Made by a program: the position numbers and the translations under genes. From a virus, in the IMG/VR virus record IMGVR_UViG_3300021371_000037, positions 1-42,195 of that record: a DNA stretch of 42,195 bases. One strand, given 5' to 3'. Below are positions 1,812 through 36,003 of the stretch, one piece after another. The notes under the pieces are model-generated. The model did no database searches, was not told the origin of the DNA, and was given only the letters and a program-made list of their open reading frames with translations. How positions within the stretch are numbered: position 1 is the stretch's first letter; each line of letters opens with the position of its first letter.

Positions 1812-1812
1812 T

Positions 1813-3316: not shown

Positions 3317-3333
3317 TAAAATAAACAAAAATT

Positions 3334-3600
3334 ATGGCAAAATCAGAAAAAACACCGTTTCCACAAAGTAAAAGATTAAAAAAAGCAGATGGTACTATCG
3401 CTTATGTATGGGATAATAAACTCCATAACTGGGAGGGACATGCTTTAATTCCTGAAGGTAAAGAAAAATTAGGTGAATATCATTTATATGGTATTAAACA
3501 TACTAAAGAAGAATGGAGTGAAGCTAGAAAACAAAGAGAAGGGTTACCTTATTATAAAAATCAATCAATGAAAGCACACCTTTCAGATTATAGAAACTAG
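3334..3600 (+). CDS. Conserved small phage protein of unknown function
   Basis: This is an 88-residue basic protein with two notable stretches, YVWDNKLHNWEGHALIPEG and EYHLYGIKHTKEEW followed by REGLPYYKN. I recall similar proteins from marine phages but not a function. No membrane segment or catalytic motif is visible. It has its own promoter-like element and ends three bases before the P-loop ATPase gene, with which it probably forms a two-gene unit. That pairing suggests a metabolic or takeover role rather than a structural one. Confidence 0.5.
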   Translation: MAKSEKTPFPQSKRLKKADGTIAYVWDNKLHNWEGHALIPEGKEKLGEYHLYGIKHTKEEWSEARKQREGLPYYKNQSMKAHLSDYRN

Positions 3601-3603
3601 GAT

Positions 3604-4134: not shown

Positions 4135-4135
4135 C

Positions 4136-4149
4136 ATATTTATAATAAA
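4136..4149 (+). promoter_or_regulatory. Late promoter element (exact ATATTTATAATAAA)
   Basis: This is an exact copy of the repeated element, 11 bases before the ATG at 4161. It contains a TATAATAA core comparable to the T4 late box TATAAATA. Confidence 0.65.
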
Positions 4150-4160
4150 ACCTTATTATA

Positions 4161-4718
4161 ATGAAAAAATCTGAATTAAAAAATTATATCAGAGAAAATA
4201 TCATCTCTACATTATCTGAAGATACTGATGCAGAAATTGAAAAAACTAAAGAATTAACTGCTGCTATTAAAGATTTAGAAGTAGCTAAAAAAGAAGCAGG
4301 CATTGAAGAAGATGCTACCCCAAAAGGTGAAGACTTCTTTTATGATTATTTAGATATTGGTATGTCTTATTTAGAAGGATTTGGTAAAAAACATTCTTTA
4401 GATGATAACCAGTTAGAAAAATTAGGTAAAAAAATAGTAGATCAATTATATAAAGGTGATGTTGGTAAGGCATATGATGCCATTGTTAAAAGAGGTTCGA
4501 TGAAAGAAAATGAAGATAAAGAACCATCTAAAGCAGATCTTAAAAAAACCAAAGGTTTAGCTAAAGCAAAAGAAGAATTAGCTTTATTAACTCGTGAAAT
4601 GAAATCATTAGCTAAAAAATATTCTAAAGCTGAAGGTGAAGAAAAAGAAAAACTAGTAGCTGATCTTAAGAAAAAAACAAAACTTAAAAAAGAATTAGAA
4701 AAGATTTTAGATAAATAA
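4161..4718 (+). CDS. Coiled-coil protein, possible internal head protein
   Basis: This is a 185-residue, Lys/Glu-rich, mostly helical protein. It opens with KKSELKNYIRENIISTLSED, an amphipathic N-terminus similar to leaders common on phage structural proteins, and LSE/D would fit a prohead-protease site. The last ~60 residues (KADLKKTKGLAKAKEELALL...KELEKILDK) form a strong coiled coil. The middle contains a short folded part (GEDFFYDYLDIGMSYLEGFGKK). It has its own late promoter, so it is expressed with virion genes. No family is recognised. Confidence 0.5.
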   Translation: MKKSELKNYIRENIISTLSEDTDAEIEKTKELTAAIKDLEVAKKEAGIEEDATPKGEDFFYDYLDIGMSYLEGFGKKHSLDDNQLEKLGKKIVDQLYKGDVGKAYDAIVKRGSMKENEDKEPSKADLKKTKGLAKAKEELALLTREMKSLAKKYSKAEGEEKEKLVADLKKKTKLKKELEKILDK

Positions 4719-4719
4719 A

Positions 4720-5103
4720 ATGGAGTCTAAAGAAAGGGTTATCTACATATTAAAAATTATAGTACTATTCTGTATAATATTCTGGTTATTATTCTCAGAT
4801 AAGGAAGAGTATGTTGAGGATTATAATGCTAAAATTATAGCATTAGAACAAAAAGTTGATTCGTTGCATAGTGAAAATGATGAATTGACTTTTAAAATCG
4901 ATACCTTAAATGGACAAATAACACAATTAGACCAACAAATAAATCTTAAAGATAACAGAATAAATAGCTTGAAATATGAAATTAGTACTAAAGTGGATGC
5001 TGTTGATAACTTTAACGATGACGAGCTTGAAAAGTTTTTCACAGAACGTTACAGACAGTACATCGATTCAGTTAAAAAAACCGATAGCGAAGTTAGTAAT
5101 TAA
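4720..5103 (+). CDS. Inner-membrane coiled-coil protein, i-spanin-like
   Basis: The 127-residue protein has one N-terminal membrane segment (about residues 8-24, YILKIIVLFCIIFWLLF) and a long periplasmic coiled coil (KIIALEQKVDSLHSENDEL...). This is the topology of Rz-type inner-membrane spanins. The start lies one base after the previous stop. The final 128 bases overlap, in another frame, the signal-peptide-bearing gene at 4976. Nested or overlapping pairs of this type are typical of phage spanins, which fuse inner and outer membranes at lysis. No endolysin is beside it, so the lysis role is an inference. Confidence 0.55.
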   Translation: MESKERVIYILKIIVLFCIIFWLLFSDKEEYVEDYNAKIIALEQKVDSLHSENDELTFKIDTLNGQITQLDQQINLKDNRINSLKYEISTKVDAVDNFNDDELEKFFTERYRQYIDSVKKTDSEVSN

Positions 5104-5389
5104 AGATTTAATTACAGGAGATGGAGCTAAAAAAGAGTTAGCTTTAACATTAGATAAAATTAATTTTTTAGAACAAAAAATAGTTCTAAAAGATAGTATT
5201 ATTTTTAGTCTTAATTCCCAAGTAGGGAATTTTGAATCTATAATGCTTACTAAAAGTGATCAGTTAGCTATATCCCAAGAGCTATCTAAAAGACTACAAT
5301 CTGATCTTAAAAAACAAAAACTTAAAACTAAATTAATGGGGGGTGCAGGTTTAGTAGCTATTGCAGGAGTAATCTTTATATTAAAATAA
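4976..5389 (+). CDS. Exported coiled-coil protein overlapping the previous gene (spanin partner candidate)
   Basis: The 137-residue protein begins with a signal peptide (KLVLKWMLLITLTMTSLKSFSQ), and the SFSQ end is characteristic of Bacteroidota exported proteins. It continues with LKKPIAKLVIKDLITGDGAK and a coiled coil, and ends in a hydrophobic segment (about residues 119-136). The pattern of PIAKLVIKDLI plus coiled coil recurs in Bacteroidota phages. There is no lipobox cysteine, so it is not a classical lipoprotein o-spanin. The C-terminal membrane segment would instead leave it anchored after export. Overlap with the previous gene is 128 bases in a different frame. Confidence 0.6.
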   Translation: MKLVLKWMLLITLTMTSLKSFSQNVTDSTSIQLKKPIAKLVIKDLITGDGAKKELALTLDKINFLEQKIVLKDSIIFSLNSQVGNFESIMLTKSDQLAISQELSKRLQSDLKKQKLKTKLMGGAGLVAIAGVIFILK

Positions 5390-5392
5390 TAT

Positions 5393-6964
5393 ATGTCAGA
5401 TTTAAAAAAAGTAATACGCTCAGAATATTTAAGGTGTGCTAAAGATCCAGTGCATTTTATGCGTAAATACTGTTATATACAACACCCACAAAGGGGGCGC
5501 ATACAATTTAATTTATATCCGTTTCAAGAAAAGGTATTAACGTTGATGCGCGATAATCCTTATTCGATTATCCTAAAATCTAGACAGCTAGGTATTTCAA
5601 CACTATCAGCAGGTTATTCTTTATGGTTAATGATATTCCATAAGGATAAAAATATTTTATGTATAGCAACAAAGCAAGAAACAGCTAAAAATATGGTTAC
5701 AAAGGTAAAATTTATGTATGAAAATTTACCTTCATGGCTTAAAGTAGATGCAGCTGAAAATAATAAATTAACTTTAAGATTAAATAATGGATCCCAAATT
5801 AAAGCCACTTCAGCAAGTTCAGATGCAGGTAGATCAGAAGCAGTATCTTTACTACTAATAGATGAGGCAGCATTTATTGATAACATTGGAGAGATTTGGG
5901 CTTCAGCTCAACAAACATTAGCAACTGGAGGTGGATGTATAGCATTATCTACTCCTTATGGTACTGGTAATTGGTTTCATCAAACTTGGGTTAGAGCAGA
6001 AAATAGAGAAAATCAATTTTTACCAATTAAATTGCCTTGGTACGTACACCCAGAAAGAGACCAAAAATGGAGAGACTCACAAGATGAATTATTAGGTGAT
6101 CCTAGAATGGCAGCACAAGAATGTGATTGTGATTTTAGTACCTCAGGTGATATTGTATTTTATCCTGAATATATAGACTTTTATGAAAAAACATATATAA
6201 AAGATCCTATGGAAAGAAGAGGAGCTGATCAAAATTTATGGGTTTGGGAATCACCTGATTATACAAGAGATTATGTTGTAGTAGCTGATGTTGCTCGTGG
6301 AGATGGAAAAGATTATTCTGCATGTCATGTAATTGATGTTGCTAATAATGTACAAGTAGCTGAATATAAAGGACAATTAGGTACAAAAGAATATGGGCAT
6401 TTATTAGTAGGTTTAGCCACTGAATATAATGAAGCAATGTTAGTAATAGAAAATGCTAATATTGGTTGGGCAACCATACAAGTTGCTTTAGATAGACAAT
6501 ATCCTAATCTTTATTATTCACAAAAGAGTGACTCCCCAACAGCTAATTCGTATTTTGACAAATACCAAGACCATTCAAAAATGGTAGCGGGTTTTACTAT
6601 GTCATCAAGAACAAGACCTATGATTATAGGTAAATTTCAAGAATATATTAGTGATAAAGGAGTAACAATACAATCAAAAAGATTAATAGAGGAAATGAAA
6701 ACCTTTATATGGAAAAATAATAGAGCAGAAGCACAAAGTGGGTATAATGATGATTTAGTTATGTCATTTGGTATTGCAATGTATATTAGAGATACAGCAT
6801 TAAAAATGAGACAAAGAGGTTTGGATGCGACTAAAAATGCTTTAGGCAATATGTCTGTAAATAGAACACCTTATCAAGGAGGATATGGTTTTTCTAAAGG
6901 AACAGATAATCCTTATCATATCAATACTGCAGATGGTAAAGAAAACATTAGATGGCTTCTTTAA
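5393..6964 (+). CDS. terL: Terminase large subunit (gp17-like)
   Basis: This 523-residue packaging motor has an N-terminal ATPase and a C-terminal nuclease. The Walker A-like loop is KSRQLGIST (about residues 62-70), Walker B is LLLIDEAA (153-160), and the coupling motif is LSTPYGTGN (185-193). The RNase H-like nuclease carries acidic residues in VVVADVARGDGKDYSA (Asp299), VIENANIGWA (Glu353) and YNDDLVMSF (Asp453 or Asp454). It cuts concatemeric DNA and pumps it into the prohead through the portal encoded next. The start is three bases after the preceding stop. No small terminase is recognisable in this window. Confidence 0.95.
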   Translation: MSDLKKVIRSEYLRCAKDPVHFMRKYCYIQHPQRGRIQFNLYPFQEKVLTLMRDNPYSIILKSRQLGISTLSAGYSLWLMIFHKDKNILCIATKQETAKNMVTKVKFMYENLPSWLKVDAAENNKLTLRLNNGSQIKATSASSDAGRSEAVSLLLIDEAAFIDNIGEIWASAQQTLATGGGCIALSTPYGTGNWFHQTWVRAENRENQFLPIKLPWYVHPERDQKWRDSQDELLGDPRMAAQECDCDFSTSGDIVFYPEYIDFYEKTYIKDPMERRGADQNLWVWESPDYTRDYVVVADVARGDGKDYSACHVIDVANNVQVAEYKGQLGTKEYGHLLVGLATEYNEAMLVIENANIGWATIQVALDRQYPNLYYSQKSDSPTANSYFDKYQDHSKMVAGFTMSSRTRPMIIGKFQEYISDKGVTIQSKRLIEEMKTFIWKNNRAEAQSGYNDDLVMSFGIAMYIRDTALKMRQRGLDATKNALGNMSVNRTPYQGGYGFSKGTDNPYHINTADGKENIRWLL

Positions 6965-21333: not shown

Positions 21334-22542
21334 ATGGCAAATTGGAAAAAGGTAGTAGTTAGTGGATCTAATGCAGAATTAGCAGAATTAACTTTATCAA
21401 ACTTATCACAACAGGCAACTGAAAACACTGTATTAACTATTAATACTGCTGGAGTAGTTGGAACAAGAGAAAATGCTGCAAGTTCTGGTACTTCAGGTAC
21501 TAGTGGATCAGATGGTTCATCCGGTTCTTCAGGAACAAGTGGTGTAGATGGTAACCCAGGTTCAAGTGGTTCTTCAGGAACAAGTGGAACTAGTGGATCA
21601 GATGGTTCAAGCGGTTCTTCAGGTACAAGTGGAGACTCTGGTTCAAGTGGTTCTAGTGGTACATCAGGAACTAGCGGTGATGATGGTGCTCCAGGTTCAA
21701 GTGGTTCTTCAGGAACAAGTGGAACTAGTGGATCAGATGGTTCAAGTGGTTCTTCAGGAACAAGTGGTGTAGATGGTGATGCTGGTTCAAGTGGTTCATC
21801 AGGAACTTCTGGTACAAGTGGTGCTGACGGTGACGCTGGTTCTTCAGGTTCTAGTGGTACATCAGGCTCAAGTGGTTCAGATGGTTCTTCAGGATCAAGT
21901 GGTACAAGTGGTTCTTCTGGTTCTTCAGGTACTTCAGGTACTAGTGGATCAGATGGTTCATCAGGTTCTAGTGGAACAAGTGGTTCTTCTGGATCAAGTG
22001 GAACATCAGGCTCATCAGGTTCTAGTGGAACAAGTGGTGTAATCAATGTTACTAATTCTGGTAATAACAGAGTATTAACAGATATTGATGGTGATAGTGC
22101 CAATGCTGAACAAAATATGACTTTTGTAAGTGATGGTGGTTCTACAGTAGGTGGTTTATTAACAGTAACCGGTGATGTAGTAATTAGTCATGATTTAACA
22201 GTACAAGGTACAGCATCTTTCCAAAATTCAGAAAATTTATTAGTAGCTGATAGATTTATCTTAATGGCTTCTGGTTCTACTTCTGTAGGAGATGGTGGTA
22301 TTGTAGTACAACAAGATACTCAAGATTATGGTGATGCTTTTGCATTTGATGGTTTATCAACTGAAAGATGGGGTGTAACAAGTTCTTTCCATGCTAGTGG
22401 ATCAGGATTTACACCAGATGCTTTCATGGCAACAGTAGTAGTAGGTTCAGGTGGAGCATTACCTTCTTCTGCCCCTACTAGATACCAAGCTGAAGGTAAT
22501 ATTTTTACATCAGCTTCAGGTGATATTTATATTTACTCTTAA
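21334..22542 (+). CDS. Collagen-like Gly-Ser/Thr-rich tail fibre protein (short paralogue)
   Basis: This is a 402-residue fibre protein. Residues 1-48 form an anchor domain (ANWKKVVVSGSNAELAELTL ... VGTRENAASSG) shared with the gene at 23083. Residues ~50-235 are an uninterrupted Gly-x-y tract built from GSSGTSG, GTSGSDG and GSSGSSG units with some GVDGNPG. The C-terminal ~165 residues are beta-rich (VINVTNSGNNRVL..., LTVTGDVVISHDLTVQGTASF) and may form the receptor-binding tip. The tract has almost no proline, so it is collagen-like in periodicity only. Its Ser/Thr density makes it a candidate glycosylation substrate. Confidence 0.8.
   Translation: MANWKKVVVSGSNAELAELTLSNLSQQATENTVLTINTAGVVGTRENAASSGTSGTSGSDGSSGSSGTSGVDGNPGSSGSSGTSGTSGSDGSSGSSGTSGDSGSSGSSGTSGTSGDDGAPGSSGSSGTSGTSGSDGSSGSSGTSGVDGDAGSSGSSGTSGTSGADGDAGSSGSSGTSGSSGSDGSSGSSGTSGSSGSSGTSGTSGSDGSSGSSGTSGSSGSSGTSGSSGSSGTSGVINVTNSGNNRVLTDIDGDSANAEQNMTFVSDGGSTVGGLLTVTGDVVISHDLTVQGTASFQNSENLLVADRFILMASGSTSVGDGGIVVQQDTQDYGDAFAFDGLSTERWGVTSSFHASGSGFTPDAFMATVVVGSGGALPSSAPTRYQAEGNIFTSASGDIYIYS
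21481..22035 (+). repeat. Gly-Ser-Ser/Thr coding repeat tract
   Basis: The nine-base periodic DNA coding for (G-S/T-S)n produces long spurious ORFs in other frames and on the opposite strand. Serine codons alternate between TCA/TCT and AGT, so the repeat is degenerate at DNA level. Confidence 0.9.
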
Positions 22543-23082: not shown

Positions 23083-26000
23083 ATGCCAAATTGGAAAAAA
23101 GTAATACTTAGTGGTAGTAATGCTGAGTTAAATGAACTTAAATTAACAGGTCTTTCAACCCAAGGATCTGAGAATACAACCCTTGTAATAAATAGTAGTG
23201 GTCAAGTAGGAACAAGAGAAAATGCTGCTTCCAGTGGTACTTCAGGTTCTTCAGGAAGTTCAGGTTCATCAGGTACATCAGGATCAAGTGGAAGTAGTGG
23301 TTCATCAGGTTCATCAGGTTCAAGTGGTACTTCTGGTTCATCAGGTTCAAGTGGCACTTCAGGTTCAAGTGGTTCAAATGGTAGTTCAGGGTCTTCAGGC
23401 TCATCTGGTTCTTCAGGAACAAGTGGTGTAGATGGTAACCCAGGCTCTAGTGGGTCTTCAGGTACATCGGGTTCATCAGGTTCATCAGGAAGTTCAGGTT
23501 CATCAGGTACATCAGGATCAAGTGGTTCAAGTGGTACTTCAGGTTCTAGTGGTAGTTCAGGTTCAAGTGGTTCATCTGGAACTTCGGGAGCAGCTACTAT
23601 TAATAATAATGTTGATACTTATTTATTAACAGCAACCGGAACTTCAGGTTTAATTGAAGGTGAAGCTAATTTAACATTTTCAGGATCAACTTTATTAACT
23701 GTATCAGGATCAGGTAGTACAATTTTAGATGTACAAGGATCCCAAGGTCAATTATTTTCAGTAACTGATGATTTAACTGGGATAGTATTTGCAGCATCAG
23801 ATATATCGGGTGTTCCTATTTTATCCGTAAGTGGTTCAGGTTTAACAATGATTGATGGGACTTTACAAATTCCAAATTTACCTAATATAACAACTAGTAA
23901 TGATGTATTAGTAATAGATTCAAATGGTAATATAGGATATGAAGCAAATGCTGCTTCTAGTGGTACTTCTGGTTCAAGTGGTTCATCAGGAAGTTCAGGT
24001 ACATCGGGTTCATCAGGAAGTTCAGGCTCATCCGGCTCTTCAGGTACATCAGGCTCATCCGGCTCTTCGGGTACATCAGGTTCATCTGGTTCTAATGGTT
24101 CAAGTGGCTCATCAGGTACTTCAGGAAATTCAGGTTCAAGTGGTTCTTCAGGTACAAGTGGTTCTTCAGGTTCAGATGGAACATCTGGTTCAAGTGGCTC
24201 ATCAGGTACTTCAGGTAATTCAGGCTCAAGTGGTTCAAGTGGTACTTCAGGTAATTCTGGTTCAAGTGGCTCTAGTGGCTCTTCAGGTTCATCAGGTACT
24301 TCAGGAAATTCAGGTTCAAGCGGTTCATCTGGAACTTCCGGTTCATCAGGTTCATCAGGTTCAAGTGGAAGTAGTGGCTCATCGGGTTCAAGTGGCTCAT
24401 CAGGTACTTCAGGACAAGATGGTAACTTTGGTGGTGCTACATTTGACTATACTTTTAGTACTTCTACTACAATTGCAAATCCAGGAGGAGGAAATATAAG
24501 ATTAAATAATTCAACCCAAACATCTGCAACAGTAGCTGCAATTAGTGAAACTGATGATGATGGAAATTCTGTTCAATCATTTTTTGAAACTATAGATTCA
24601 TCAACTTCAGCTGTAAAAGGTCATATGAGATTATCAGATAAAGATGATCCTTCAGATTTTATACTATTTGCCCTTGATGAATTGGTTGACCAAGGGGATT
24701 GGTGGCAATTTACAATAATATTTGAATCCCAAGGGGGTAATGCTTTAACAAACGGTGAAGATATTATAGCATCCTTTGTAACAACAGGTGATAGAGGAGA
24801 TGATGGTACATCAGGTTCATCTGGTAGTTCAGGTTCATCTGGTAGTTCAGGTTCATCTGGTAGCTCAGGCTCATCAGGTTCATCAGGTACATCAGGTAAC
24901 TCAGGCTCATCAGGTTCATCAGGTACATCAGGTAACTCAGGCTCATCTGGTTCTTCTGGAACAAGTGGTACCTCAGGTTCATCTGGTTCTTCAGGAACTT
25001 CAGGAACTTCAGGTAATTCTGGTTCAAGTGGCTCCAGTGGTTCATCAGGTTCTTCAGGTACATCAGGTTCATCAGGTTCATCAGGAACTTCGGGTAATTC
25101 TGGTTCTAGTGGTTCATCTGGTTCTAGTGGTTCATCTGGTACTAGTGGCTCTAGTGGCTCTAGTGGTACTTCAGGTCAAGATGGAGGTACAATAGCAAGA
25201 TTTAATGGATATGATAATGGTACTTTAAACACTACTAATTTTTCAACTAATGGGACAACAGCATTTTTAAAAGTTGATACTACACAATATGGTTTAGACC
25301 CATCAATTAATACAAACTATTATACATTTACTAATCAATCAGATACTATTACTATTGATAATGATGGTTATTATATAATTAATGCTAATATTGTATTTTT
25401 AGTATCAACTAGAAGCACATTAAGATCAATGATGGCAGCTTCTGTTTATATTAATGGTGTTAAACAAGAAGACACTTATGCTGATTCATACTCAAGGGGA
25501 TCTAGTTATAACGAGGATATAAACGTATCTGTTAAAGCTTATTATTTCTTATCAGCTAATGATACTATTAAAATAGAGCTTGAAACAGCTCATATGGATA
25601 CTAGTGGTAATGGTACTGTTGCAGTACAAGATGCTGTTTGGAATGTAGCATTTATAACTGGAACAGCAGCTGCAGCTGGTAATGATGGTTCATCAGGAAC
25701 AAGTGGTACATCAGGTTCATCAGGTTCATCAGGAACTTCGGGTAATTCTGGTTCTAGTGGTTCATCTGGTACTAGTGGCTCTAGTGGCTCTAGTGGTACT
25801 TCAGGTGGAACAGGCTCACCTGGTACTTCAGGAACTTCAGGCTCTTCAGGTTCATCAGGATCATCAGGTACTAGTGGTTCAAGTGGTTCTAGTGGTACAA
25901 GTGGCGGTACTGGTTCTCCAGGTACTTCAGGTACTTCAGGCTCTTCAGGCTCTTCAGGTTCATCAGGAACATCAGGCTCCTCAGGATCTTCAGGTACAAG

Positions 26001-27351
26001 TGGTGGTACCGGTTCCCCAGGTACTTCAGGTTCATCAGGTTCATCAGGTTCATCAGGTACTAGTGGTAATAGTGGTTCTTCAGGTTCTAGTGGTACTTCA
26101 GGTAACTCCGGTTCTTCAGGTTCATCAGGAACATCAGGTGGACAAGGTGACCCAGGTTCCCCAGGTACTTCAGGTTCATCCGGTTCAAGTGGTTCATCAG
26201 GTACATCAGGTTCATCAGGTTCATCAGGTACATCAGGTTCATCAGGTTCATCAGGTACTACTACTATTACAAATAATTCAAATAATAGAGTATTAACCGC
26301 TACTGGTACTTCAACAATTAATGGTGAATCTAATTTAACTTTTGATGGTACTTGTCTTGCAGGACCAATTTTACAATTTGGTTTTTGTCATACAATAGGA
26401 TCAGGATTTAGTTACCCTTCCGTTACAGGTGGAAGCCAAAATACATCATCAGCATCTTGTTCTACTATAGGTGGTGGATGTAGAAATTTTATTTGTGATA
26501 CTGGTGGTTCTTTTATAGGAGCGGGTGATAGAAATTGTATTTCTGGGTCAGGATGTTTTAATATAATTGGAGCTGGTCAAGTTAATAAAATTTGTGCACT
26601 TGGTAGTTGTACTGCTCAAGTAACAATGGCTGGAATTTTTGCTGGTGCGAATAATACAATAACTGGTGTAACAGGTGGTTGTGTGCATATTGGTTCTGGT
26701 TATTCAAACCTAATTTGTGGTAACTCTGCGTATTCAAGTATAGTTGGAGGATGGGACAATACTATTTGTTCTTCTCAAAAAGCCTCAATAGTAGCAGGAT
26801 GTAATAACTGTATTTGCAATAGTGCTAATGATAGTGTTATTTTAGGAGGGTATTCAAATTATATAAATGGTCAAACTTGTACTTTTGTTGCGGGTAATAA
26901 TATTAGTACTACAACTTCCAATTCTTTATATATGAATAATGGAATTGTTACTCAACACTTGCAAGTAGGAGGAACATCTCCTTGTAATACAACTACAGGT
27001 AGAATTGATGCAACAAATGATGTTGTAGCATATGCAACCTCAGATAGAAGATTAAAAGAAAATATTAAGCCTATTGATAGTGCTTTATGTAAAGTAATCG
27101 GAGTATCAGGTAATACATTTGATTGGAAAGAGTTAACTAAAGAAGAAAAACTAGTTATACATGGTAATGAAGGACCGGATGTTGGTGTAATTGCCCAAGA
27201 AATAGAAGAAGTATTACCTGAAGCAGTTACTACAAGAGAAAGTGGTTATAAAGCTGTTAATTATGAAAAAATTGTACCTTTATTAATTGAAGCAATTAAA
27301 GACTTAACAAATAAAGTAGAAAAATTAGAAACAAAAATAAATAAAAAATAA
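23083..27351 (+). CDS. Giant collagen-like tail fibre with C1q-like domain and S74 self-cleaving chaperone
   Basis: This is a 1422-residue fibre protein. Domains in order are: anchor 1-48 (shared with 21334); Gly-Ser-Ser/Thr tracts ~50-169, 290-445, 575-697 and 869-1057; beta spacers ~170-288, 446-573 (a sandwich-like unit, DYTFSTSTTIANPGGG... to FVTTGDRGDDG) and ~703-862. The last spacer looks like a C1q/TNF jelly roll (DTITIDNDGYYIINANIVF, SVYINGVKQ, SANDTIKIELE). Residues ~1060-1310 are a Cys-rich beta region with IGGG/IGAG-type turns. Residues ~1318-1422 are a peptidase S74 intramolecular chaperone, with predicted self-cleavage before Ser1320 in TSDRRLKENIKP. The C-terminus ends in a coiled coil that would trimerise the fibre. 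Confidence 0.9.
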   Translation: MPNWKKVILSGSNAELNELKLTGLSTQGSENTTLVINSSGQVGTRENAASSGTSGSSGSSGSSGTSGSSGSSGSSGSSGSSGTSGSSGSSGTSGSSGSNGSSGSSGSSGSSGTSGVDGNPGSSGSSGTSGSSGSSGSSGSSGTSGSSGSSGTSGSSGSSGSSGSSGTSGAATINNNVDTYLLTATGTSGLIEGEANLTFSGSTLLTVSGSGSTILDVQGSQGQLFSVTDDLTGIVFAASDISGVPILSVSGSGLTMIDGTLQIPNLPNITTSNDVLVIDSNGNIGYEANAASSGTSGSSGSSGSSGTSGSSGSSGSSGSSGTSGSSGSSGTSGSSGSNGSSGSSGTSGNSGSSGSSGTSGSSGSDGTSGSSGSSGTSGNSGSSGSSGTSGNSGSSGSSGSSGSSGTSGNSGSSGSSGTSGSSGSSGSSGSSGSSGSSGSSGTSGQDGNFGGATFDYTFSTSTTIANPGGGNIRLNNSTQTSATVAAISETDDDGNSVQSFFETIDSSTSAVKGHMRLSDKDDPSDFILFALDELVDQGDWWQFTIIFESQGGNALTNGEDIIASFVTTGDRGDDGTSGSSGSSGSSGSSGSSGSSGSSGSSGTSGNSGSSGSSGTSGNSGSSGSSGTSGTSGSSGSSGTSGTSGNSGSSGSSGSSGSSGTSGSSGSSGTSGNSGSSGSSGSSGSSGTSGSSGSSGTSGQDGGTIARFNGYDNGTLNTTNFSTNGTTAFLKVDTTQYGLDPSINTNYYTFTNQSDTITIDNDGYYIINANIVFLVSTRSTLRSMMAASVYINGVKQEDTYADSYSRGSSYNEDINVSVKAYYFLSANDTIKIELETAHMDTSGNGTVAVQDAVWNVAFITGTAAAAGNDGSSGTSGTSGSSGSSGTSGNSGSSGSSGTSGSSGSSGTSGGTGSPGTSGTSGSSGSSGSSGTSGSSGSSGTSGGTGSPGTSGTSGSSGSSGSSGTSGSSGSSGTSGGTGSPGTSGSSGSSGSSGTSGNSGSSGSSGTSGNSGSSGSSGTSGGQGDPGSPGTSGSSGSSGSSGTSGSSGSSGTSGSSGSSGTTTITNNSNNRVLTATGTSTINGESNLTFDGTCLAGPILQFGFCHTIGSGFSYPSVTGGSQNTSSASCSTIGGGCRNFICDTGGSFIGAGDRNCISGSGCFNIIGAGQVNKICALGSCTAQVTMAGIFAGANNTITGVTGGCVHIGSGYSNLICGNSAYSSIVGGWDNTICSSQKASIVAGCNNCICNSANDSVILGGYSNYINGQTCTFVAGNNISTTTSNSLYMNNGIVTQHLQVGGTSPCNTTTGRIDATNDVVAYATSDRRLKENIKPIDSALCKVIGVSGNTFDWKELTKEEKLVIHGNEGPDVGVIAQEIEEVLPEAVTTRESGYKAVNYEKIVPLLIEAIKDLTNKVEKLETKINKK
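23230..23589 (+). repeat. Gly-Ser-Ser/Thr tract 1 of the giant fibre
   Basis: It encodes about 120 residues of (G-S-S)/(G-T-S) units with single GSNG and GVDGNPG interruptions. Confidence 0.9.
23950..24420 (+). repeat. Gly-Ser-Ser/Thr tract 2 of the giant fibre
   Basis: It encodes about 155 residues, with recurrent GNSGSSGSSGTS units and one GSDGTSG. Confidence 0.9.
24806..25176 (+). repeat. Gly-Ser-Ser/Thr tract 3 of the giant fibre
   Basis: It encodes about 123 residues and shares long DNA-level identity with the start of tract 4 (GNSGSSGSS...GTSGSSG), consistent with duplication or recombination. Confidence 0.9.
25687..26255 (+). repeat. Gly-Ser-Ser/Thr tract 4 of the giant fibre
   Basis: It encodes about 189 residues. 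Three repeated GGTGSPGTSG units and one GGQGDPGSPGTSG are the only places with proline, giving short genuinely collagen-like patches. Confidence 0.9.
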
Positions 27352-27662
27352 TGACACATACTTGGGAAGTACATAATCTTGAAAGAGTTTTAGATGGAAA
27401 TGTAGTAACTAAAATTTACTTTAGAGTATACTCTGAAGAAAACGGAATTTTCAAAAATTATTTTGGTGAACATACTATAACAGGATCGGCATCAGACCCC
27501 AATTTTATTCCCTTTGAAAATCTAACTCAAAATGTAGTAGTAGAATGGTTAAAAAGTGGTGTTGATGTAACTGCTATTCAAACAATTAATGAAGATAGAA
27601 TAAACGAAGAAATTGCAGCTTACGTAGCTCCAACAACAGAAGAAGGAATACCTTGGGGATAA
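27351..27662 (+). CDS. Small fibre-associated protein, possible assembly helper
   Basis: The ATG of this 103-residue protein shares one base with the stop of the giant fibre gene, so it is translationally coupled. The pattern THTWEVHNLERVLDGNVVTKIYFRVY followed by IPFENLTQNVVVEWL and a C-terminal PWG is that of small proteins commonly next to tail fibres and other structural genes in marine phages. The function is unproven. Coupling to the fibre gene suggests a fibre chaperone or a virion subunit made in matched amounts. Confidence 0.55.
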   Translation: MTHTWEVHNLERVLDGNVVTKIYFRVYSEENGIFKNYFGEHTITGSASDPNFIPFENLTQNVVVEWLKSGVDVTAIQTINEDRINEEIAAYVAPTTEEGIPWG

Positions 27663-27719: not shown

Positions 27720-28598
27720 ATGAATATTATATTCCAAATCGAGGGAGGACTCGGTAAATCTATTATGGCAACTGCCATAGTAAAAGCTATTAAAAATCGT
27801 TATAAAAACGCGAAACTAATAGTAGTCACAGCATATACCGATGTATTTTTAAATAACCCCTATATACATGAAGTTTACCACATAAACTATTTAAGTGGAA
27901 TATATCCAAAATATATAAAAGATCAAAAATGTAAAATTTTTGCAAATGAGCCTTATAAAACATCAGATTTTATACTTGATAAACCAGTTCATTTATTAAA
28001 AACTTGGTGTGAACTCATTGGTATTAGATATAACAATGAACAACCTGAAATATATCTTTCAAAACCAGAAACAGAATATTTTTCTCCTTATTATTCAACT
28101 GAAAAACCTATTTTAGCTATCCAACCTAATGGGGGACCCCAAGGTATGGGTTATCAATATGCATGGACTAGAGATATACCTACTAAATTAGTAAAAGAAA
28201 TTATAGATTATTATAAAAAAGATTATACTATAATTCATATTAAAAGAGAGGATCAATTAATATATCCTGATACCTTACAAGCTTTAGATGGGTATAGAAG
28301 TATAGCTATTCTTCTTCAAAAAGCTAGTAAAAGATTATTAATAGATAGTTTTAGCCAACATATGGCTAGAGCATTAAATAGAAAATCTACAGTATGTTGG
28401 GTAAATACAAAACCAGAAATATTCGGTTATAATTTTCATGACAACATAAAAGCAAATCCTTATACTAAAGATATACCATTACATAATATAGCTTATGCTC
28501 CCTTTAATTTATCCGAAGGAATATCTAGTATGCCTTATAATGATTTAAACGAAGTATTTGATATAAATAAAATTATTACATCTATAAATAACCAATAA
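27720..28598 (+). CDS. GT9-like glycosyltransferase (heptosyltransferase fold)
   Basis: The 292-residue protein resembles the ADP-heptose:LPS heptosyltransferase family (GT-B fold). The N-terminus NIIFQIEGGLGKSIMATAIV has the GGxGK donor-loop pattern. The C-terminal half has LAIQPNGGP and LLIDSFSQHMARALNRKSTVCW, equivalent to the DS..HxA.A..K...V donor-binding stretch of GT9. No membrane segment is seen, so it is cytoplasmic. It starts a three-gene glycosyltransferase run behind its own non-late promoter and ends flush with the next ATG. The donor and acceptor are unknown. Confidence 0.75.
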   Translation: MNIIFQIEGGLGKSIMATAIVKAIKNRYKNAKLIVVTAYTDVFLNNPYIHEVYHINYLSGIYPKYIKDQKCKIFANEPYKTSDFILDKPVHLLKTWCELIGIRYNNEQPEIYLSKPETEYFSPYYSTEKPILAIQPNGGPQGMGYQYAWTRDIPTKLVKEIIDYYKKDYTIIHIKREDQLIYPDTLQALDGYRSIAILLQKASKRLLIDSFSQHMARALNRKSTVCWVNTKPEIFGYNFHDNIKANPYTKDIPLHNIAYAPFNLSEGISSMPYNDLNEVFDINKIITSINNQ

Positions 28599-31500
28599 AT
28601 GCCAGATAATACTAAAATTTTAGTTTCTAGTTGTTATATAGGAACAACAGGTTTTAATAATCATTCTCGTGATTTTTTTAGAAACCTTTCAAATTATTAT
28701 CCATTAAAAATTAGAAATTTTACGGTACCTAAATATTGGAATGGTTTAAAAGATGAACCTTTTAATGAAGAACCCTATATAACTGATTTAGATAAAAAAT
28801 TAATTTCAACTCAAACTACATTTGCTGATAATAAAAAATTACATGATACTAAAATTTATAAAAATTATCCTAATAATTTAGACCATAACTTAAACATAAT
28901 TTTAGCTGAAGTAAACCATCATTATTTTTATCAAACATATGAAGGACCTAAAATTGCTTATTTAGTGTGGGAAACAACTGAATATCCAAAACAATTTTAT
29001 AATAGAATAAAAGAATTTGACCAAATTTGGGTACCTTCCCAATGGCAAAAAGAATGTAATATAATCCAAGGTATTCCAGAAAAGAAAATTAAAGTAGTAC
29101 CTGAAGCTGTAGATGGAGAAGTATTTAAACCTAATAAAGAAGCAACATTACCTGAGTATGATGATAAAAGATTTAAATTTATTCATTTTGGAAGATGGGA
29201 TTATAGAAAATCAACTAAAGAAGTAATTGAAAGTTTTTTAAAAGAATTTGATAAAAATGAACCCGTAGATTTAATACTTTCTATTGATAATATATTTGCT
29301 AAAGATGGTTTTAAAACAACTGAAGAAAGATTAAAACATTATAAATTAATTGATCCTAGAATTAAAATCAAACATTTTCCTTCTCGAGAAGAATATATTA
29401 AATATTTACAAAAAGGGCATGTGTTTTTATCTTGTGCCCGTTCTGAAGGATGGAATTTACCTTTAATTGAAGCTATGGCTTGTGGTACTCCTTCTATTTA
29501 TTCTAATTGTAGTGCTCAACTAGAATTTGCTGAAGGAAAAGGATTACCTGTAAATGTTATAGGAACACAACCCGCTATTAGGGGAGAATATAGTACATAC
29601 TCTCAATCAGAATTATCAGGAGAATTTTACACCCCAGATTTTATCCATCTTAGAGAAGTAATGAGAGATGCTTATGAAAATTATGATTATCATAAAAAAG
29701 AAGCATTAAAAGAATCCAAAGATATTAGAGAAAAATTTACTTGGGATAATATGGCTAAAATAGCTAGTAAAGAAATAGACTCTTTTATGGCTAATCCTCC
29801 AAAAAATACAGTTGAAATTAGTTTTAATCAAGGAGCAAAAGTAGAAGTATTTGGTTCTAATAAAAATGAATATTTTGTAGAATTTATAAATGCTGATACT
29901 AATAAAGTAATACATTCTAGTACTATTAAAAATAATATGTGGACTAAATGTAATCTTGAATATTATATTCCCTGGATCATCAAAATAGATGGTGATGTAG
30001 TTCATACTTTTGATGTAACTAACCAAACAGTTAAGATATCCTTAGACTCAAAATCTGTAGGAGATACTTTAGCATGGACCCCACAAGTTTTAGAATTTCA
30101 AAAGAAACATAATTGTAAAGTTATAGTTAGTACTTTTCATAATGAATGGTTTGAAAATAATCCTGAATATAAAAACATTAAATTTGTTAAACCAGAGGAA
30201 TCTGTTAATTCATATGTACATTATAAAATAGGGTGGTTTAAAACTAATGGAAAATGGGATAAAGGTAAAAAAAATAAAAACCAAGTAAATACTATTCCTC
30301 TAATTCAAGCTGCTAGTGATGCTTTAGGATTGTCTTATAAAGAAATTAACTATGGTGTAGATTTTAAAATTGGGAAAAGACCTATTAAAGAAAAATATAT
30401 TTGTATTGGTCCTAAATCAACCTCAGGATTAAAAGAATGGCCCCATGACAGATGGAGAAGTTTAGCTAAAAAACTACATAAAAAGGGATATAAAATAGTT
30501 AATTTATCTTATGAAGGATTTTCTGGAACAAATATAATTAATAAAAAGAAACTTAATTGGGAAAAAACTTTTAATTATCTTTACCATGCTGATTTATTTA
30601 TAGGTTTAGGATCTGGTTTATCTTGGGCAAATTGGGCTTTAGACAAACCAACCTTAATGATTAATAATTTTATTCCTTTTGGTTATGAATTTACAAATAA
30701 ATTAACTAAAATAGAAAATAATACAGTATGTAATAATTGTTGGGTTAATAAAGATTTTACTTTTGATCCTGGTAATTGGGATTGGTGCCCTAAAAATGAA
30801 GGAACTCCAAAACAACATATATGTCAAAAATCTATTACAGTAGATCAAGTTTATTTAGAATGTTTAAATATATTAGAACCTAAAAACAATACAGATTTTG
30901 TTTGGGTAACAGGGGGTGATAAACCTTATTTATCTATGATAGAAGTTTTAGCTAAAAGTCTTTTAAAACATTCTAAACATAAATTACTTGTATATGGTTT
31001 TAATTGTGATCCCAAAATTAATTTACCTAATGTAATTAATAAAAGAATAGATTTTGATCCTAAACCAATAAGACATATCCCTAATGAATTTGATTTAATA
31101 GATAAAGATTATTCTTTATATTATGCTAAATATCTAACCAGTTTAGATTCTTTAAATACTGAATATCAAAATTTTGCTTGGATAGATGGTGATGCTTTTG
31201 TTACTGAACATATTGATAAATCTTTAAAGTATATTTCTAATTTAACAGATTATCCTTTATTTATGAGATATTTTGATGAAGATATGGTTCATTGGAGAAA
31301 ATATAAAAATATAAAATTAGAAGGACATTATGGGGCAGAAATATCACATATCTTAGATATTGAAAGAAACCCAAATAAAAATATTATAGCAACTGGTTTT
31401 TATTTTTATAATAAAGATTCAAAATCATTTTTCCAAAAATGTTTAGATTTAAACCAAAAATTAAATTTACAAAATTTACAAATATTTGCAGATGATAATG

Positions 31501-32342
31501 CCTTCTCAGAAGAAAGAATAACTAATGCTTTACTTTGGAAAGAAAATAAAACAAATCATTTACCTATTACATGGAATAATTATTATTCCCCTAAGGAAAA
31601 AGTTGTTGTAGATCAAAGTATATTAGATAAAGGGTTTGATATTATGTTTGATATAGCAAATAAACAACCTTATTTTGTACATGGACCGGACCCATCAGTT
31701 GTTTCTAAAAACAGTAAAACTCTGGATATAATGTACCAGGACTACCAATTAAAAAAATTAATGATAGTAGCTCATCCTGATGATGAATTGATATTTGGGG
31801 GTGCCGAATTAATAAAATATGGTCCTGAATATAAAGTTATTTGTCTTACCAATAAATCAAATAAAATTAGAAGTAAAGAATTTGAACAGGTAATGAAAAA
31901 ATTAAATGTAGGTTCTTGGGAAATTCTTGATCATAAAGACGATTTAAATAACCCTCCTGAAAAGTATAATATTGAATCAATATTACTAGGTAGACAATGG
32001 GAAAAAATAGTAACTCATAACCCTATAGGTGAATACGGACATCCACAACATAAAGCTATATTTAACTTTATTAAAGAATATATTGATAAAATTATTTTAG
32101 AAGATATATTATATGTATTTGGGAAATCTAATACTAAGTTAGATAAGAAAAACTTGAAAACTAAAAAAGAATTACTTACATTGTATAAATCTGAACAACC
32201 TATTATTAATCAGTTATTAAACAATAAGGGAAGTTGGTTTAAAAGTAGTAATAATAATACTAACTATATAGAACATGAGTCTATAAAAAAATATAATAAA
32301 AAAAAGGATAAAAATAATTATATAGCATGTTATGAAAAATAA
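28599..32342 (+). CDS. Four-domain glycosylation enzyme: GT4, TibC-like O-heptosyltransferase, GT-A transferase, PIG-L deacetylase
   Basis: This is a 1247-residue fusion. (1) Residues ~1-395 are a GT4-like GT-B enzyme with CARSEGWNLPLIEAMACGTP (Glu283 and Glu291, E-x7-E) and FIHFGRWDYRKS. (2) Residues ~399-757 match the bacterial autotransporter O-heptosyltransferase family (TibC/Aah). The matching features are SVGDTLAWTPQVLEFQKKHN, a GLGSGLSWANWALDKPT donor region, and a four-cysteine iron motif CNNCW...WCP...CQKSIT (Cys711, 714, 730, 742). (3) Residues ~764-1045 are a GT-A domain with WIDGDAF (Asp863, Asp865). (4) Residues ~1052-1230 are a PIG-L/LmbE zinc deacetylase with AHPDDE (His1059, Asp1061, Asp1062) and EYGHPQH (His1148, His1151). 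All motifs look intact. Confidence 0.85.
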   Translation: MPDNTKILVSSCYIGTTGFNNHSRDFFRNLSNYYPLKIRNFTVPKYWNGLKDEPFNEEPYITDLDKKLISTQTTFADNKKLHDTKIYKNYPNNLDHNLNIILAEVNHHYFYQTYEGPKIAYLVWETTEYPKQFYNRIKEFDQIWVPSQWQKECNIIQGIPEKKIKVVPEAVDGEVFKPNKEATLPEYDDKRFKFIHFGRWDYRKSTKEVIESFLKEFDKNEPVDLILSIDNIFAKDGFKTTEERLKHYKLIDPRIKIKHFPSREEYIKYLQKGHVFLSCARSEGWNLPLIEAMACGTPSIYSNCSAQLEFAEGKGLPVNVIGTQPAIRGEYSTYSQSELSGEFYTPDFIHLREVMRDAYENYDYHKKEALKESKDIREKFTWDNMAKIASKEIDSFMANPPKNTVEISFNQGAKVEVFGSNKNEYFVEFINADTNKVIHSSTIKNNMWTKCNLEYYIPWIIKIDGDVVHTFDVTNQTVKISLDSKSVGDTLAWTPQVLEFQKKHNCKVIVSTFHNEWFENNPEYKNIKFVKPEESVNSYVHYKIGWFKTNGKWDKGKKNKNQVNTIPLIQAASDALGLSYKEINYGVDFKIGKRPIKEKYICIGPKSTSGLKEWPHDRWRSLAKKLHKKGYKIVNLSYEGFSGTNIINKKKLNWEKTFNYLYHADLFIGLGSGLSWANWALDKPTLMINNFIPFGYEFTNKLTKIENNTVCNNCWVNKDFTFDPGNWDWCPKNEGTPKQHICQKSITVDQVYLECLNILEPKNNTDFVWVTGGDKPYLSMIEVLAKSLLKHSKHKLLVYGFNCDPKINLPNVINKRIDFDPKPIRHIPNEFDLIDKDYSLYYAKYLTSLDSLNTEYQNFAWIDGDAFVTEHIDKSLKYISNLTDYPLFMRYFDEDMVHWRKYKNIKLEGHYGAEISHILDIERNPNKNIIATGFYFYNKDSKSFFQKCLDLNQKLNLQNLQIFADDNAFSEERITNALLWKENKTNHLPITWNNYYSPKEKVVVDQSILDKGFDIMFDIANKQPYFVHGPDPSVVSKNSKTLDIMYQDYQLKKLMIVAHPDDELIFGGAELIKYGPEYKVICLTNKSNKIRSKEFEQVMKKLNVGSWEILDHKDDLNNPPEKYNIESILLGRQWEKIVTHNPIGEYGHPQHKAIFNFIKEYIDKIILEDILYVFGKSNTKLDKKNLKTKKELLTLYKSEQPIINQLLNNKGSWFKSSNNNTNYIEHESIKKYNKKKDKNNYIACYEK

Positions 32343-33309
32343 AAATTTAGTTATAATATTATGCCATTGTAATGATGATACTAAGAAAAATATTTTAAAT
32401 AAAAATATAGATAGAATTAAAAAAGAAGGATTTGATATAATGGTGTTATCTCATATTCCTGTATCTAACTCCATACAAGAAAAAATAAATTATTTTATCT
32501 ATGATAAAAGTAATCCTGTAATTGAATATCCTTATAGAGGAATGGTATTTTGGAAAAATTTAAATTTTAAAGATAAATCTATTAAATTGCAAAATATATT
32601 AAATGATTATGGGTGGACAGCATTTAACCAAATATTATTAGCTGGAAATTTAGGGGTATCATTAGATTATGATTATTTTAGTTTCATTAATTATGATGTT
32701 AAGATAACGGATAATATTATTCATGATTTAAATAATCCTATTCCTTTTTTAGTATCTAAAGTAAAAGATTTAAGATTAAAAGATATAGATTATAGATTTC
32801 CAAGTTTTATGTTAAATGTTTTATCAAAAGAAAATTTAAAATCTATACTACCCATTATAAATAAAAAATATTACATGAGTGACCAACACCCATGGAAAAA
32901 TGATGGAAAATTTAGAGATGCAGAAGAATATTGGGAACAATTAATTAAAAATTTCGAATATAGTACCCACATAGAACCAATTGCAGATCAAGTTAGTTAT
33001 TGGAGTGAAGAAACAGATGGTTTATTTAATTTTAGTAAAAATAAAGATTTTAAAATATTTTTCCAAAATTCAAATACTCATAAAAGAATTATGACCCAAG
33101 ATTTTATTCCAAGAATAATAATTTATGATAATTCTCTTCCTGAATTAATATTAGTAGTGAATTCTTTAGAAACAATTATTGATAAAGAAAACATATGCTT
33201 AGACCTTCCAGAAGAAATATCAAAAATTGGGTATATAGTAAAAGGTGAATATTATGACTTAACAAAAGTATATAATAAGTCTATTTATTCAACTATAGAT
33301 TTTAACTAA
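32332..33309 (+). CDS. Putative GT-A-type glycosyltransferase
   Basis: The 325-residue protein overlaps the end of the four-domain gene by 11 bases. The start (NLVIILCHCNDDTKKNILNKNI) is an alpha/beta strand-helix pattern, and FSFINYDVKITDN near residue 120 is an Asp-containing strand end like the metal site of GT-A enzymes. The central GNLGVSLDYDYF and the later EPIADQVSYWSEETDG fit sugar transferases only loosely. Its place at the end of a glycosyltransferase run is the main support. The substrate is unknown. Confidence 0.5.
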   Translation: MKNKNLVIILCHCNDDTKKNILNKNIDRIKKEGFDIMVLSHIPVSNSIQEKINYFIYDKSNPVIEYPYRGMVFWKNLNFKDKSIKLQNILNDYGWTAFNQILLAGNLGVSLDYDYFSFINYDVKITDNIIHDLNNPIPFLVSKVKDLRLKDIDYRFPSFMLNVLSKENLKSILPIINKKYYMSDQHPWKNDGKFRDAEEYWEQLIKNFEYSTHIEPIADQVSYWSEETDGLFNFSKNKDFKIFFQNSNTHKRIMTQDFIPRIIIYDNSLPELILVVNSLETIIDKENICLDLPEEISKIGYIVKGEYYDLTKVYNKSIYSTIDFN

Positions 33310-33654: not shown

Positions 33655-36003
33655 ATGGCAGAAACATTAATATCTCCAGGAGTATTAGCAAGAGAAAACG
33701 ATCAATCCCTTGTTACAGCTCAACCCCTAACTAGAGGAGCAGCAATTATAGGACCAACAGTTAAAGGACCGGTTGAAAAACCAACTTTAGTTAGTTCTTA
33801 TAGTTCATTCCAAACAATTTTTGGTTCTACTTTAGAAAGTGGTTCTCAAGATTACACTTATTTAACTTCAATTGCAGCTAATAATTATTTCCAACAAGGT
33901 GGAACTTCTTTACTTGTAACTAGAGTAACAAGTGGTAGTTTTGATCCTGCTTTATCTACAACTATCCAAAATAATGTTGAATCTACAACAGCAGGATTAG
34001 CTGGAAACCTTATAGGAGACTATACTAGTGGTGGTACAGGAGGTGATAAAGGTACTTTTACTACCGTTGCTTCAAATACTACTCCTAATAATGGAGCAAC
34101 TTTTTCAATAACAGTTGGTGAATTAACAAATTTAATAGCAACTCAAAACGTAACAGCAGATAGTGCTTTTGTAGGTGGTACTACAATAGGTGCTGTAGCA
34201 GGACCATTTACAGTTGCAATAACATCTGTATCAGGTGGTACACAACAAGATGGTACAGGAGCAACTCTTACAATTACAACAGATGGTGGTGGAGCAGCTG
34301 GTGCTTTAGTATCAGTTGTAGTAGCTGACGCAGGATCGGGTTATGTTACTGGAAATATATTAACAATTTCTGCAGCTGATTTAGTTACTGCTGGATTTAC
34401 AGCTTGTGATAAAGACTTACAATTTACTGTTGAAGATGACAATTTATTAAATGGAGTAACTGCAATTAATGTAATTGAAGATGGAGCAGGATACGCAAAA
34501 GATGACGTATTAACTATAGCAGCCGCTGCGATCGGAACTCCAACAGCTGATTTAGTAATAACTTTAACAGATAGTTCAATTGTTAATCAAAACGCTTTTG
34601 TACTAGAAACTCTTTCTGAAGGACTTATTATGAATAACACATCCCCAGTAGGAGCTGATACTGGAGGAACAGAATTACCAAATGGAGCATTAGCAAGTGG
34701 TTCTGCAGATAACTTAAGATGGGAAATTGGGGCTGTAAACACAGCATCAGGTGTATTCTCATTATTTATTAGACGTGGTAATGATAATAATAATCAAAAA
34801 GTTATTTTAGAATCATTTAATAATATCTCTTTAGATCCATTTTCTCCAAATTATATCTCAAGAGCAATTGGTGATGTTACTTCAAATGTAGTAGTAGCAG
34901 GAGATGGTTCAGGAACTTATTTACAAGAATCAGGTTCTTATCCTAATGTATCTAATTATGTAAGAGTAAAAGAAGTAAATGCACCAACCCCTTATTACTT
35001 TGATAATAATGGTGTAGCAAAAACTGAATTTACAGCATCTTTACCTCAATTAGGATCTGGTTCATTTGATCAAGGTGTAGGTTCAAACTTAAACACAGTA
35101 TCATATAACAGATTTTACGAACAAATTGATTCAGTAAATACGCAAGGAGTAATTGGAACAGATTATACTAATGCAATTAATTTATTAGCAAATCAGGATG
35201 AATATCAATACAATGTAATTTCAGCTCCAGGTTTATATTATTCAAATTATGCTGTACAGTGTAATTTAATTAAAAATATGTGTATTTCAAGAGGAGATGC
35301 AATTTATGTAATGGATTTAGTTCCTTATAATACAGCAATTGCAACTGTAAACCAAAATGCAGGAGCTATAGATTCAAGTTATGCAGCTGCATACTGGCCT
35401 TGGTTACAAACTATTGATCCAAGTAGTGGGTTACTAGTGTATGTACCAGCTTCTACAATGATTCCAGGAGTATATGCATTTACAGATGCTTCTTCAGATC
35501 CATGGTTTGCACCAGCAGGTATTACTAGGGGAGGATTAGGTGCTGTAGTAAGAGCTGAAAGAAAATTAACTTCAGCAAACAGAGATACTTTATATGAAGC
35601 AAATGTAAATCCAATTGCTACATTCCCACAACAAGGAGTAGTAGTATTTGGTCAGAAAACGCTACAAAAAGCAGCAACTGCTTTAGATAGAGTAAATGTA
35701 CGAAGATTATTGATTACACTTAAAGATTATATTTCTCAAATTGCTGACAACTTAGTATTTGAACAAAATACAATAGCAACAAGACAAAATTTCTTAACAC
35801 AAGTAAATCCATATTTAGAATCAGTACAACAAAGACAAGGATTATATGCTTTTAAAGTAGTAATGGATGAAACAAATAATACACCAGATGTTATTGATAG
35901 AAATGAGTTAATTGGACAGATTTTCTTACAACCAACTAAAACAGCTGAATTTATTATACTAGATTTCAATGTATTACCAACTGGAGCAACATTCCCAGCA
36001 TAA
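33655..36003 (+). CDS. Contractile tail sheath protein (gp18-like)
   Basis: The 782-residue sheath subunit starts with ETLISPGVLARENDQSLVTA and RGAAIIGPTVKGPVEKPTLV, and the QTIFG...YLTSIAANNYFQQGGTSLLVTRV segment follows, all typical of T4-type sheaths. The C-terminal domain is clear: TFPQQGVVVFGQKTL, DRVNVRRLLITLKDYISQIA, FLQPTKTAEFIILDFNVLPTG. The central ~250 residues (from about residue 130) are a Gly/Thr-rich insertion of beta repeats (GSGYVTGNILTI and GAGYAKDDVLTI) that probably decorate the sheath surface. Late promoter upstream, and the tube gene follows. Confidence 0.95.
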   Translation: MAETLISPGVLARENDQSLVTAQPLTRGAAIIGPTVKGPVEKPTLVSSYSSFQTIFGSTLESGSQDYTYLTSIAANNYFQQGGTSLLVTRVTSGSFDPALSTTIQNNVESTTAGLAGNLIGDYTSGGTGGDKGTFTTVASNTTPNNGATFSITVGELTNLIATQNVTADSAFVGGTTIGAVAGPFTVAITSVSGGTQQDGTGATLTITTDGGGAAGALVSVVVADAGSGYVTGNILTISAADLVTAGFTACDKDLQFTVEDDNLLNGVTAINVIEDGAGYAKDDVLTIAAAAIGTPTADLVITLTDSSIVNQNAFVLETLSEGLIMNNTSPVGADTGGTELPNGALASGSADNLRWEIGAVNTASGVFSLFIRRGNDNNNQKVILESFNNISLDPFSPNYISRAIGDVTSNVVVAGDGSGTYLQESGSYPNVSNYVRVKEVNAPTPYYFDNNGVAKTEFTASLPQLGSGSFDQGVGSNLNTVSYNRFYEQIDSVNTQGVIGTDYTNAINLLANQDEYQYNVISAPGLYYSNYAVQCNLIKNMCISRGDAIYVMDLVPYNTAIATVNQNAGAIDSSYAAAYWPWLQTIDPSSGLLVYVPASTMIPGVYAFTDASSDPWFAPAGITRGGLGAVVRAERKLTSANRDTLYEANVNPIATFPQQGVVVFGQKTLQKAATALDRVNVRRLLITLKDYISQIADNLVFEQNTIATRQNFLTQVNPYLESVQQRQGLYAFKVVMDETNNTPDVIDRNELIGQIFLQPTKTAEFIILDFNVLPTGATFPA

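Follow-up and report, generated by a model that had tools for sequence, protein, structure and literature searches.

A Four-Domain Phage Protein with GT4, TibC-Like, GT-A, and PIG-L Domains and Its Association with Serine-Rich Collagen-Like Fibres

The four-domain gene and its modules

The stretch analysed here (IMG/VR record IMGVR_UViG_3300021371_000037, 42,195 bases, hereafter the window) is a fragment of the genome of a large marine contractile-tailed phage, with plus-strand genes for terminase, portal, major head protein, PhoH, neck, fibre, sheath, tube, and baseplate hub. Among them lies a gene for a 1247-amino-acid (aa) protein in which a GT4 glycosyltransferase, a TibC-like domain, a GT-A glycosyltransferase, and a PIG-L de-N-acetylase follow one another in that order (Table 1). 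An earlier note, made from the sequence without database searches, had described it as one polypeptide with four glycan-active domains, and searches of each segment with profiles or structures recovered four enzyme folds. The GT4 part was matched by PF00534 over residues 188-309 (E 5e-11; 42.8 bits against a gathering score of 26.4) and by phrog_2170 over residues 17-389 (E 3e-28), whereas the PIG-L part was matched by PF02585 over residues 1054-1161 (E 3e-11; 44.4 bits against 28.2) and, in Foldseek searches with our first model, by 2ixd BC1534 (E 3e-6, probability 1.00) and BshB.

Table 1. Positions of the four-domain gene, its domains, and neighbouring genes in the window.
Feature	Positions	Strand	Residues, motifs, and evidence
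Second collagen-like protein	21334..22542	+	62 GXY triplets; 80 Ser, 20 Thr
Collagen-like fibre, C-terminal S74 chaperone	23083..27351	+	PF01391 255.6 bits (above gathering score), PF13884, tail-fibre PHROGs
p292, GT9/heptosyltransferase-III-like	27720..28598	+	Abuts four-domain gene; TIGR02201 E 0.005 only, weak; co-conserved
Four-domain glycan-modifying protein	28599..32342	+	Single open frame, 1247 aa from ATG
GT4 (GT-B, retaining)	28599..29783	+	Residues 1-395; E283-x7-E291; PF00534, phrog_2170
TibC-like	29796..30863	+	Residues 400-755; D489, T608/K612, W676, C711/C714/C730/C742; TIGR04414, PDB TibC
GT-A	30876..31733	+	Residues 760-1045; D863-G-D865 metal motif, H1028; AlphaFold2 and VIA-align
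PIG-L type zinc de-N-acetylase	31746..32339	+	Residues 1050-1247; AHPDDE, HPQH; PF02585, Foldseek
p325, INYD motif	32332..33309	+	Overlapping downstream gene; no family or PDB match
Tail sheath	33655..36003	+	phrog_23 E 7e-69; anchors cassette position in relatives

The segment between the TibC-like and PIG-L domains gave no match in Pfam or PDB sequence searches. A model from 10 alignment rows was poor for this domain, but an AlphaFold2 model of the segment based on 44 homologues was good (predicted local distance difference test 92.3, predicted template-modelling score 0.90). VIA-align placed this model at Z values of about 15 to glycogenin, LgtC, GT6, and UGGT, all of them GT-A enzymes. As modelled, residues 760-1045 are thus a GT-A fold glycosyltransferase with a DxD motif; for an assignment to GT8, GT6, or GT24 the Z values were tied, and no sequence match to any of these was found. 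Members of the glycogenin, LgtC, GT6, and UGGT families are retaining enzymes, and their donors are mostly UDP-sugars.

The catalytic residues were near-invariant in all four domains across approximately 50-64 distinct homologues. E283-x7-E291, D863-G-D865, H1059-P-D-D-E, and H1148-P-x-H1151 were kept in at least 98% of them, and 106 positions of the GT4 domain reached at least 98% conservation in 52 distinct rows. The alignments therefore agreed with the earlier note, which had singled out E-x7-E, four cysteines, DGD, and AHPDDE with HPQH as retained. Relatives of equal length and identical domain order were 85-88% identical to the window protein. Compared with the relative L001, divergence at codon positions 1, 2, and 3 was 11.3%, 4.0%, and 23.4%, with 233 synonymous and 161 nonsynonymous codon differences. 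This excess at third positions, together with the relatives of equal length and order, indicates a real gene under purifying selection; because the same length and order recurred in many independent contigs, and split versions also exist, a chance or assembly fusion could be ruled out.

Scans of viral contigs, most of which are fragments, yielded 33 and then 67 relatives. GT4 and TibC-like domains form a pair, either fused or, in the smallest version, as neighbouring genes. The GT-A-PIG-L half was fused to them in 52 loci (some of which represent one contig fetched twice), lay in the next gene in approximately 16 contigs, and occurred without any TibC in two; in five contigs PIG-L was gone and GT-A was fused to p325. 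The 1247-aa chain thus consists of two fused modules, a GT4-TibC core and an optional GT-A-PIG-L module that is often a separate adjacent gene. Among 50,697 annotated phage records, none carried the full chain or the GT-A-PIG-L half, in line with the earlier note, to which no described phage enzyme of this order was known. The note had also proposed an assembly line with a Ser-linked first sugar, further sugars, and N-deacetylation. The folds and these steps fit the evidence, but a single obligatory line does not, the modules being fused in some phages and split in others.

Other arrangements were also seen. In L601 (positions 1-6156), a 2052-aa open frame has the permuted order GT-A-GT-A-PIG-L-x-TibC, and another phage record encodes methyltransferase-GT-A-GT4-TibC, with the methyltransferase and GT4 labels assigned by eye. 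In sheath-related phages, this cassette of enzyme genes occupies a slot flanked by neck or fibre genes on one side and by p84-sheath-tube on the other.

A sister clade of the TibC enzymes

The TIGR04414 model (NCBIfam) scored 197.7 bits on residues 403-753, which is 2.3 below its curated equivalog cut-off of 200, and residues 403-751 matched residues 23-379 of TibC in the PDB (4rap/4rb4; E ~1e-30). The domain shares 26% identity over its whole length with the TibC/AAH enzymes, the bacterial autotransporter heptosyltransferases (BAHT). The TibC catalytic base Asp110 corresponds to D489, the phosphate binders T226 and K230 to T608 and K612, and W305 to W676, all of which are kept, and the iron-finger cysteines C711/C714/C730/C742 are spaced as TibC C339/342/358/370. 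The BAHT enzymes have a beta-hairpin thumb with a hydrophobic tip, and the corresponding loop is shorter here; of two alignments, one placed I646-I647 opposite TibC F265-V266 and the other placed them in a gap.

The four iron-finger cysteines were kept in 61 of 64 distinct homologues. In L021/L090, L076, and L078 they are jointly replaced (N, I, D, A) with the catalytic residues retained; the replacement was read directly in L021, and L076 and L078, its nearest rows, complete the count of three. Judging from the alignment, this subgroup may represent a natural iron-finger-free TibC. A row from a large phage lacks them as well, with P, Y, Y, and a gap at these positions.

A bacterial genome scan yielded 78 loci. 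A tree of 155 TibC domains was divided by a branch with a Shimodaira-Hasegawa-like approximate likelihood ratio test (SH-aLRT) value of 99. On one side stood 83 rows including TibC; the other side comprised every one of the 67 phage rows together with the bacterial loci L099-L102 and the metagenome-assembled genome (MAG) contig L103, so that the phage domains form a sister clade to the classical BAHT enzymes rather than part of the same clade. The equivalents of D110, K230, and W305 were kept on both sides of the branch, and that of T226 mostly so. Two contigs, L098 and L103, carry the labels of bacterial MAGs (Cli_8; Chloroflexi NAT137). L098 has the gene order of the window, with the cassette followed by open reading frames (ORFs) of sheath and tube size, and is probably a phage; L103 may be one.

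In contrast to these residues, the position of TibC Arg286 is occupied by T657 in the window. Of the 83 classical rows, 82 have arginine there. It is much rarer in the sister clade, where 1 of 47 phage rows, 3 of 20 rows from large phages, and one of the four bacterial loci have it. In TibC, Arg286 makes contact with the adenine of ADP-heptose, and mutation to alanine removes all or most of the activity (eLife 2014;3:e03714). ADP-heptose, which the earlier note had implied as a donor, is consequently not to be assumed, and since most members of the phage clade lack this arginine, the donor may be a different one. A "cytidylyltransferase" of Microcystis phage Mel-JY01 was inspected by eye as a candidate ADP-heptose synthesis gene, and nothing was found in its favour.

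Serine-rich GXY repeats and other genes beside the cassette

The fibre encoded just upstream of the cassette has four runs of Gly-X-Y (GXY) repeats, one of them at 23236-23595, which together comprise 203 triplets and contain 302 Ser and 58 Thr. In phages with TibC, the collagen-like repeats were GSS, GTS, and GNS, with Ser or Thr at 75-100% of X and Y positions in most; in L236 and L242, the most distant of these phages, the share was 53-55%. In contrast, sheath-related phages lacking TibC at the cassette position had GAQ, GNQ, GAT, and GTT repeats with 25-34% Ser/Thr and almost no Ser. The presence of collagen alone was a weak marker for TibC because some phages without TibC also have collagen; it is the composition of the repeats that separates the two groups.

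The association was also examined in reverse. Phage records were chosen solely on the basis of DNA that encodes GSSGTSGSSGTSG, and records containing classical GPx repeats served as the control (L266, which matched both patterns, was assigned to the first set). The TibC profile matched 25 of 47 serine-repeat records of at least 30 kb, 19 of 28 of at least 45 kb, and 12 of 13 of at least 100 kb, compared with none of 36 control records; among collagen-verified controls, the counts were 0/19 (at least 30 kb) and 0/15 (p = 1.5e-5). A Ser-rich GXY ORF lay no more than 9 kb from TibC in 14 of 20 TibC-positive records, and among records of at least 100 kb such an ORF lay within that distance in 7 of 10, where 1.6 were expected. 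Two phages found via TibC alone, Mel-JY01 and a 735-kb uncultured phage, had GTS/GSS repeats nearby, and a 636-kb uncultured phage had none within 15 kb of TibC.

The same pairing was observed in bacteria. In L099 (from Methylobacter luteus), L100, and L102, which belong to Methylobacter and Methylococcaceae, a collagen-like protein with (GTSGTSGTAG)n or similar repeats is encoded just upstream of TibC, and in L101 GSSG/GTSG repeats occur in two neighbouring genes. A GTSG/GSSG repeat protein thus stood beside TibC in all four bacterial loci of the clade, versus 0 of 73 others (p = 7e-7). The classical BAHT loci that were checked adjoin TIGR04415 strand-loop-strand autotransporters with up to 52 repeats; an NCBIfam scan of the window fibre gave no TIGR04415 match.

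Two side observations concern individual records. In Mel-JY01 (PP395634; L035:14-2176), a plus-strand frame of 1016 aa with 202 GXY triplets (GTS, GSS) lies beneath annotated minus-strand genes at the start of the record and is probably an unannotated fibre. L268 (148 kb), the only tested serine-repeat record of at least 100 kb without TibC, may have another enzyme that serves this type of fibre.

As for the remaining neighbours, neither p325 nor p292 could be classified by profile searches, although p325 is probably a further glycan enzyme. A DUF7936 gene (27351-27662; PF25590 E 8e-18) lies directly 3' of the fibre gene and is co-conserved in many relatives; its product might be a fibre assembly factor. 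In L002 (5028-8125), a gene for a GT25 enzyme (PF01755 E 2e-22) and one for a PhyH-type 2-oxoglutarate dioxygenase are located between the fibre and p103, with similar ORFs in L003, L004, L010, and L013, a pair that recalls the hydroxylase-glucosyltransferase L230 of mimivirus. In L008 (15725-17859), C-methyltransferase and Polysacc_synt_2 dehydratase genes lie between p325 and the sheath gene, and similar-sized genes occur in L012 and others. Because sugar-biosynthesis genes sit by the cassette in L008, some of these phages may make their own unusual nucleoside diphosphate sugar.

Proposed function and its meaning

We consider it likely that the four-domain protein is a virion-decorating enzyme that O-glycosylates the phage's own collagen-like fibre, with extension of the glycan and a de-N-acetylated sugar. 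By homology to TibC, the TibC-like domain would place the first sugar onto Ser, and perhaps Thr, of the Gly-Ser/Thr-Ser repeats. On the evidence of composition and position, the fibre just upstream is the probable acceptor and the second collagen-like protein a possible one. GT4, the near-constant partner of TibC, would probably extend this sugar or else supply the second residue. The GT-A domain, retaining and metal-dependent by its fold, could then add a further sugar, probably an N-acetylhexosamine, which the PIG-L domain of the same optional module would deacetylate to a positively charged amine. A benefit to the phage may lie in masking, stability, or adhesion. Coupling of a glycosyltransferase to a PIG-L enzyme is also seen in the BshA/BshB and MshA/MshB pairs of small-molecule thiol synthesis, where a GT4 enzyme is followed by a PIG-L de-N-acetylase acting on its N-acetylglucosamine product; in the window, by contrast, PIG-L is fused to the GT-A enzyme. 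A wider proposal, on which we are evenly divided, is that the clade represents a distinct subfamily that O-glycosylates Gly-X-Ser collagen, is sister to BAHT, has a changed nucleotide specificity, and is common in large phages and present in a few methanotrophs; in the lineage of the window it would have grown into a chain of three transferases and a deacetylase that provides the fibre with a cationic amino-sugar coat.

Several observations weigh against glycosylation of the fibre. One TibC-positive record of 77 kb gave no match to collagen, and the parts of it that were read contained no GXY run; several TibC loci had no collagen gene nearby, although longer records often have one elsewhere. 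TibC was absent from 22 of the 47 serine-repeat records, which may be fragments or carry another enzyme. The association could partly follow phage lineage, and the GPx controls are possibly other types of phage. Moreover, a GXY chain is unlike the beta-helix acceptor of TibA, all four iron-finger cysteines are absent in three phage rows, and the loss of Arg286 leaves the donor uncertain. With regard to the donor, transfer from ADP-heptose to the same fibre would be compatible with the proposed function and is consistent with the retained base, phosphate-binding Thr/Lys, and Trp305 equivalents; nevertheless, we regard it as doubtful, given the near-constancy of Arg286 in the classical rows only and the strong effect of R286A in TibC (eLife 2014;3:e03714).

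The target might instead be another virion protein, such as a neck, sheath, tube, or capsid protein, with the link to collagen reflecting shared membership of the tail module. Many relatives have a neck gene directly before the cassette and no collagen gene within reach, and the cassette is always 5' of the sheath gene. There is also a precedent, since mycobacteriophage virion proteins carry glycans linked to phage-encoded glycosyltransferases; in the account of this work in PMC12619734 (citing Freeman et al. 2023), the glycans are on the C-termini of capsid and tail-tube proteins rather than on collagen-like fibres, and no TibC-like enzyme is reported. We consider this target improbable because it leaves unexplained the Ser-rich repeats of TibC-positive relatives versus almost none in TibC-negative ones, the outcome of the reverse test in the longest records, and the same pairing in Methylobacter chromosomes. 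Modification of host surface glycans, for superinfection exclusion or receptor change, is less probable still: GT4, GT25, and PIG-L are common in polysaccharide pathways and sugar-biosynthesis genes adjoin the cassette in relatives such as L008, but no membrane or polymer-export gene was seen in the cassette, which sits inside the structural module, and TibC, the nearest enzyme of known activity, acts on protein serines; the association with Ser-rich GXY repeats also speaks against this reading.

Glycosylation of the phage's own fibre has partial counterparts elsewhere. The window enzyme differs from TibC/AAH in being phage-encoded and fused to other enzymes, in having lost Arg286, and in lying beside a fibre without a strand-loop-strand match. 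Mimivirus L230, a collagen lysyl hydroxylase-glucosyltransferase (PMC9614988), is likewise a virus-encoded multidomain enzyme and glycosylates the virus's own collagen-like proteins; it acts, however, on hydroxylysine via an unrelated GLT25D1-like domain and belongs to a giant virus of amoebae. For BclA exosporium proteins, PMC7157674 and the citation of Daubenspeck 2004 in PMC9614988 describe glycosylation of a collagen-like region from bacteria or of a BclA-type protein, but the glycosyltransferases described there are others (SgtA for C. difficile BclA3; PMC7157674), as are the organisms. Among open-licence papers, we found none in which TibC-like enzymes are connected to phages or to collagen-like fibres, and no description of the pairing of enzyme and fibre, which recurs in many large phages and a few bacteria.

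Fibres with Ser-rich (GSSGTSG)n repeats turn up often among phage records from metagenomes, and we found no explanation for their serines. An enzyme-acceptor pair, if true, would account for them and give the BAHT enzymes a second type of acceptor. Phages might then be counted among the viruses that attach sugars to collagen of their own, for which mimivirus L230 is the known case. Mel-JY01 and Methylobacter would offer a genetic handle on the role of virion glycans in adsorption, stability, and avoidance of host defence, and the enzymes would provide compact tools for the glycosylation of designed collagen-like proteins.

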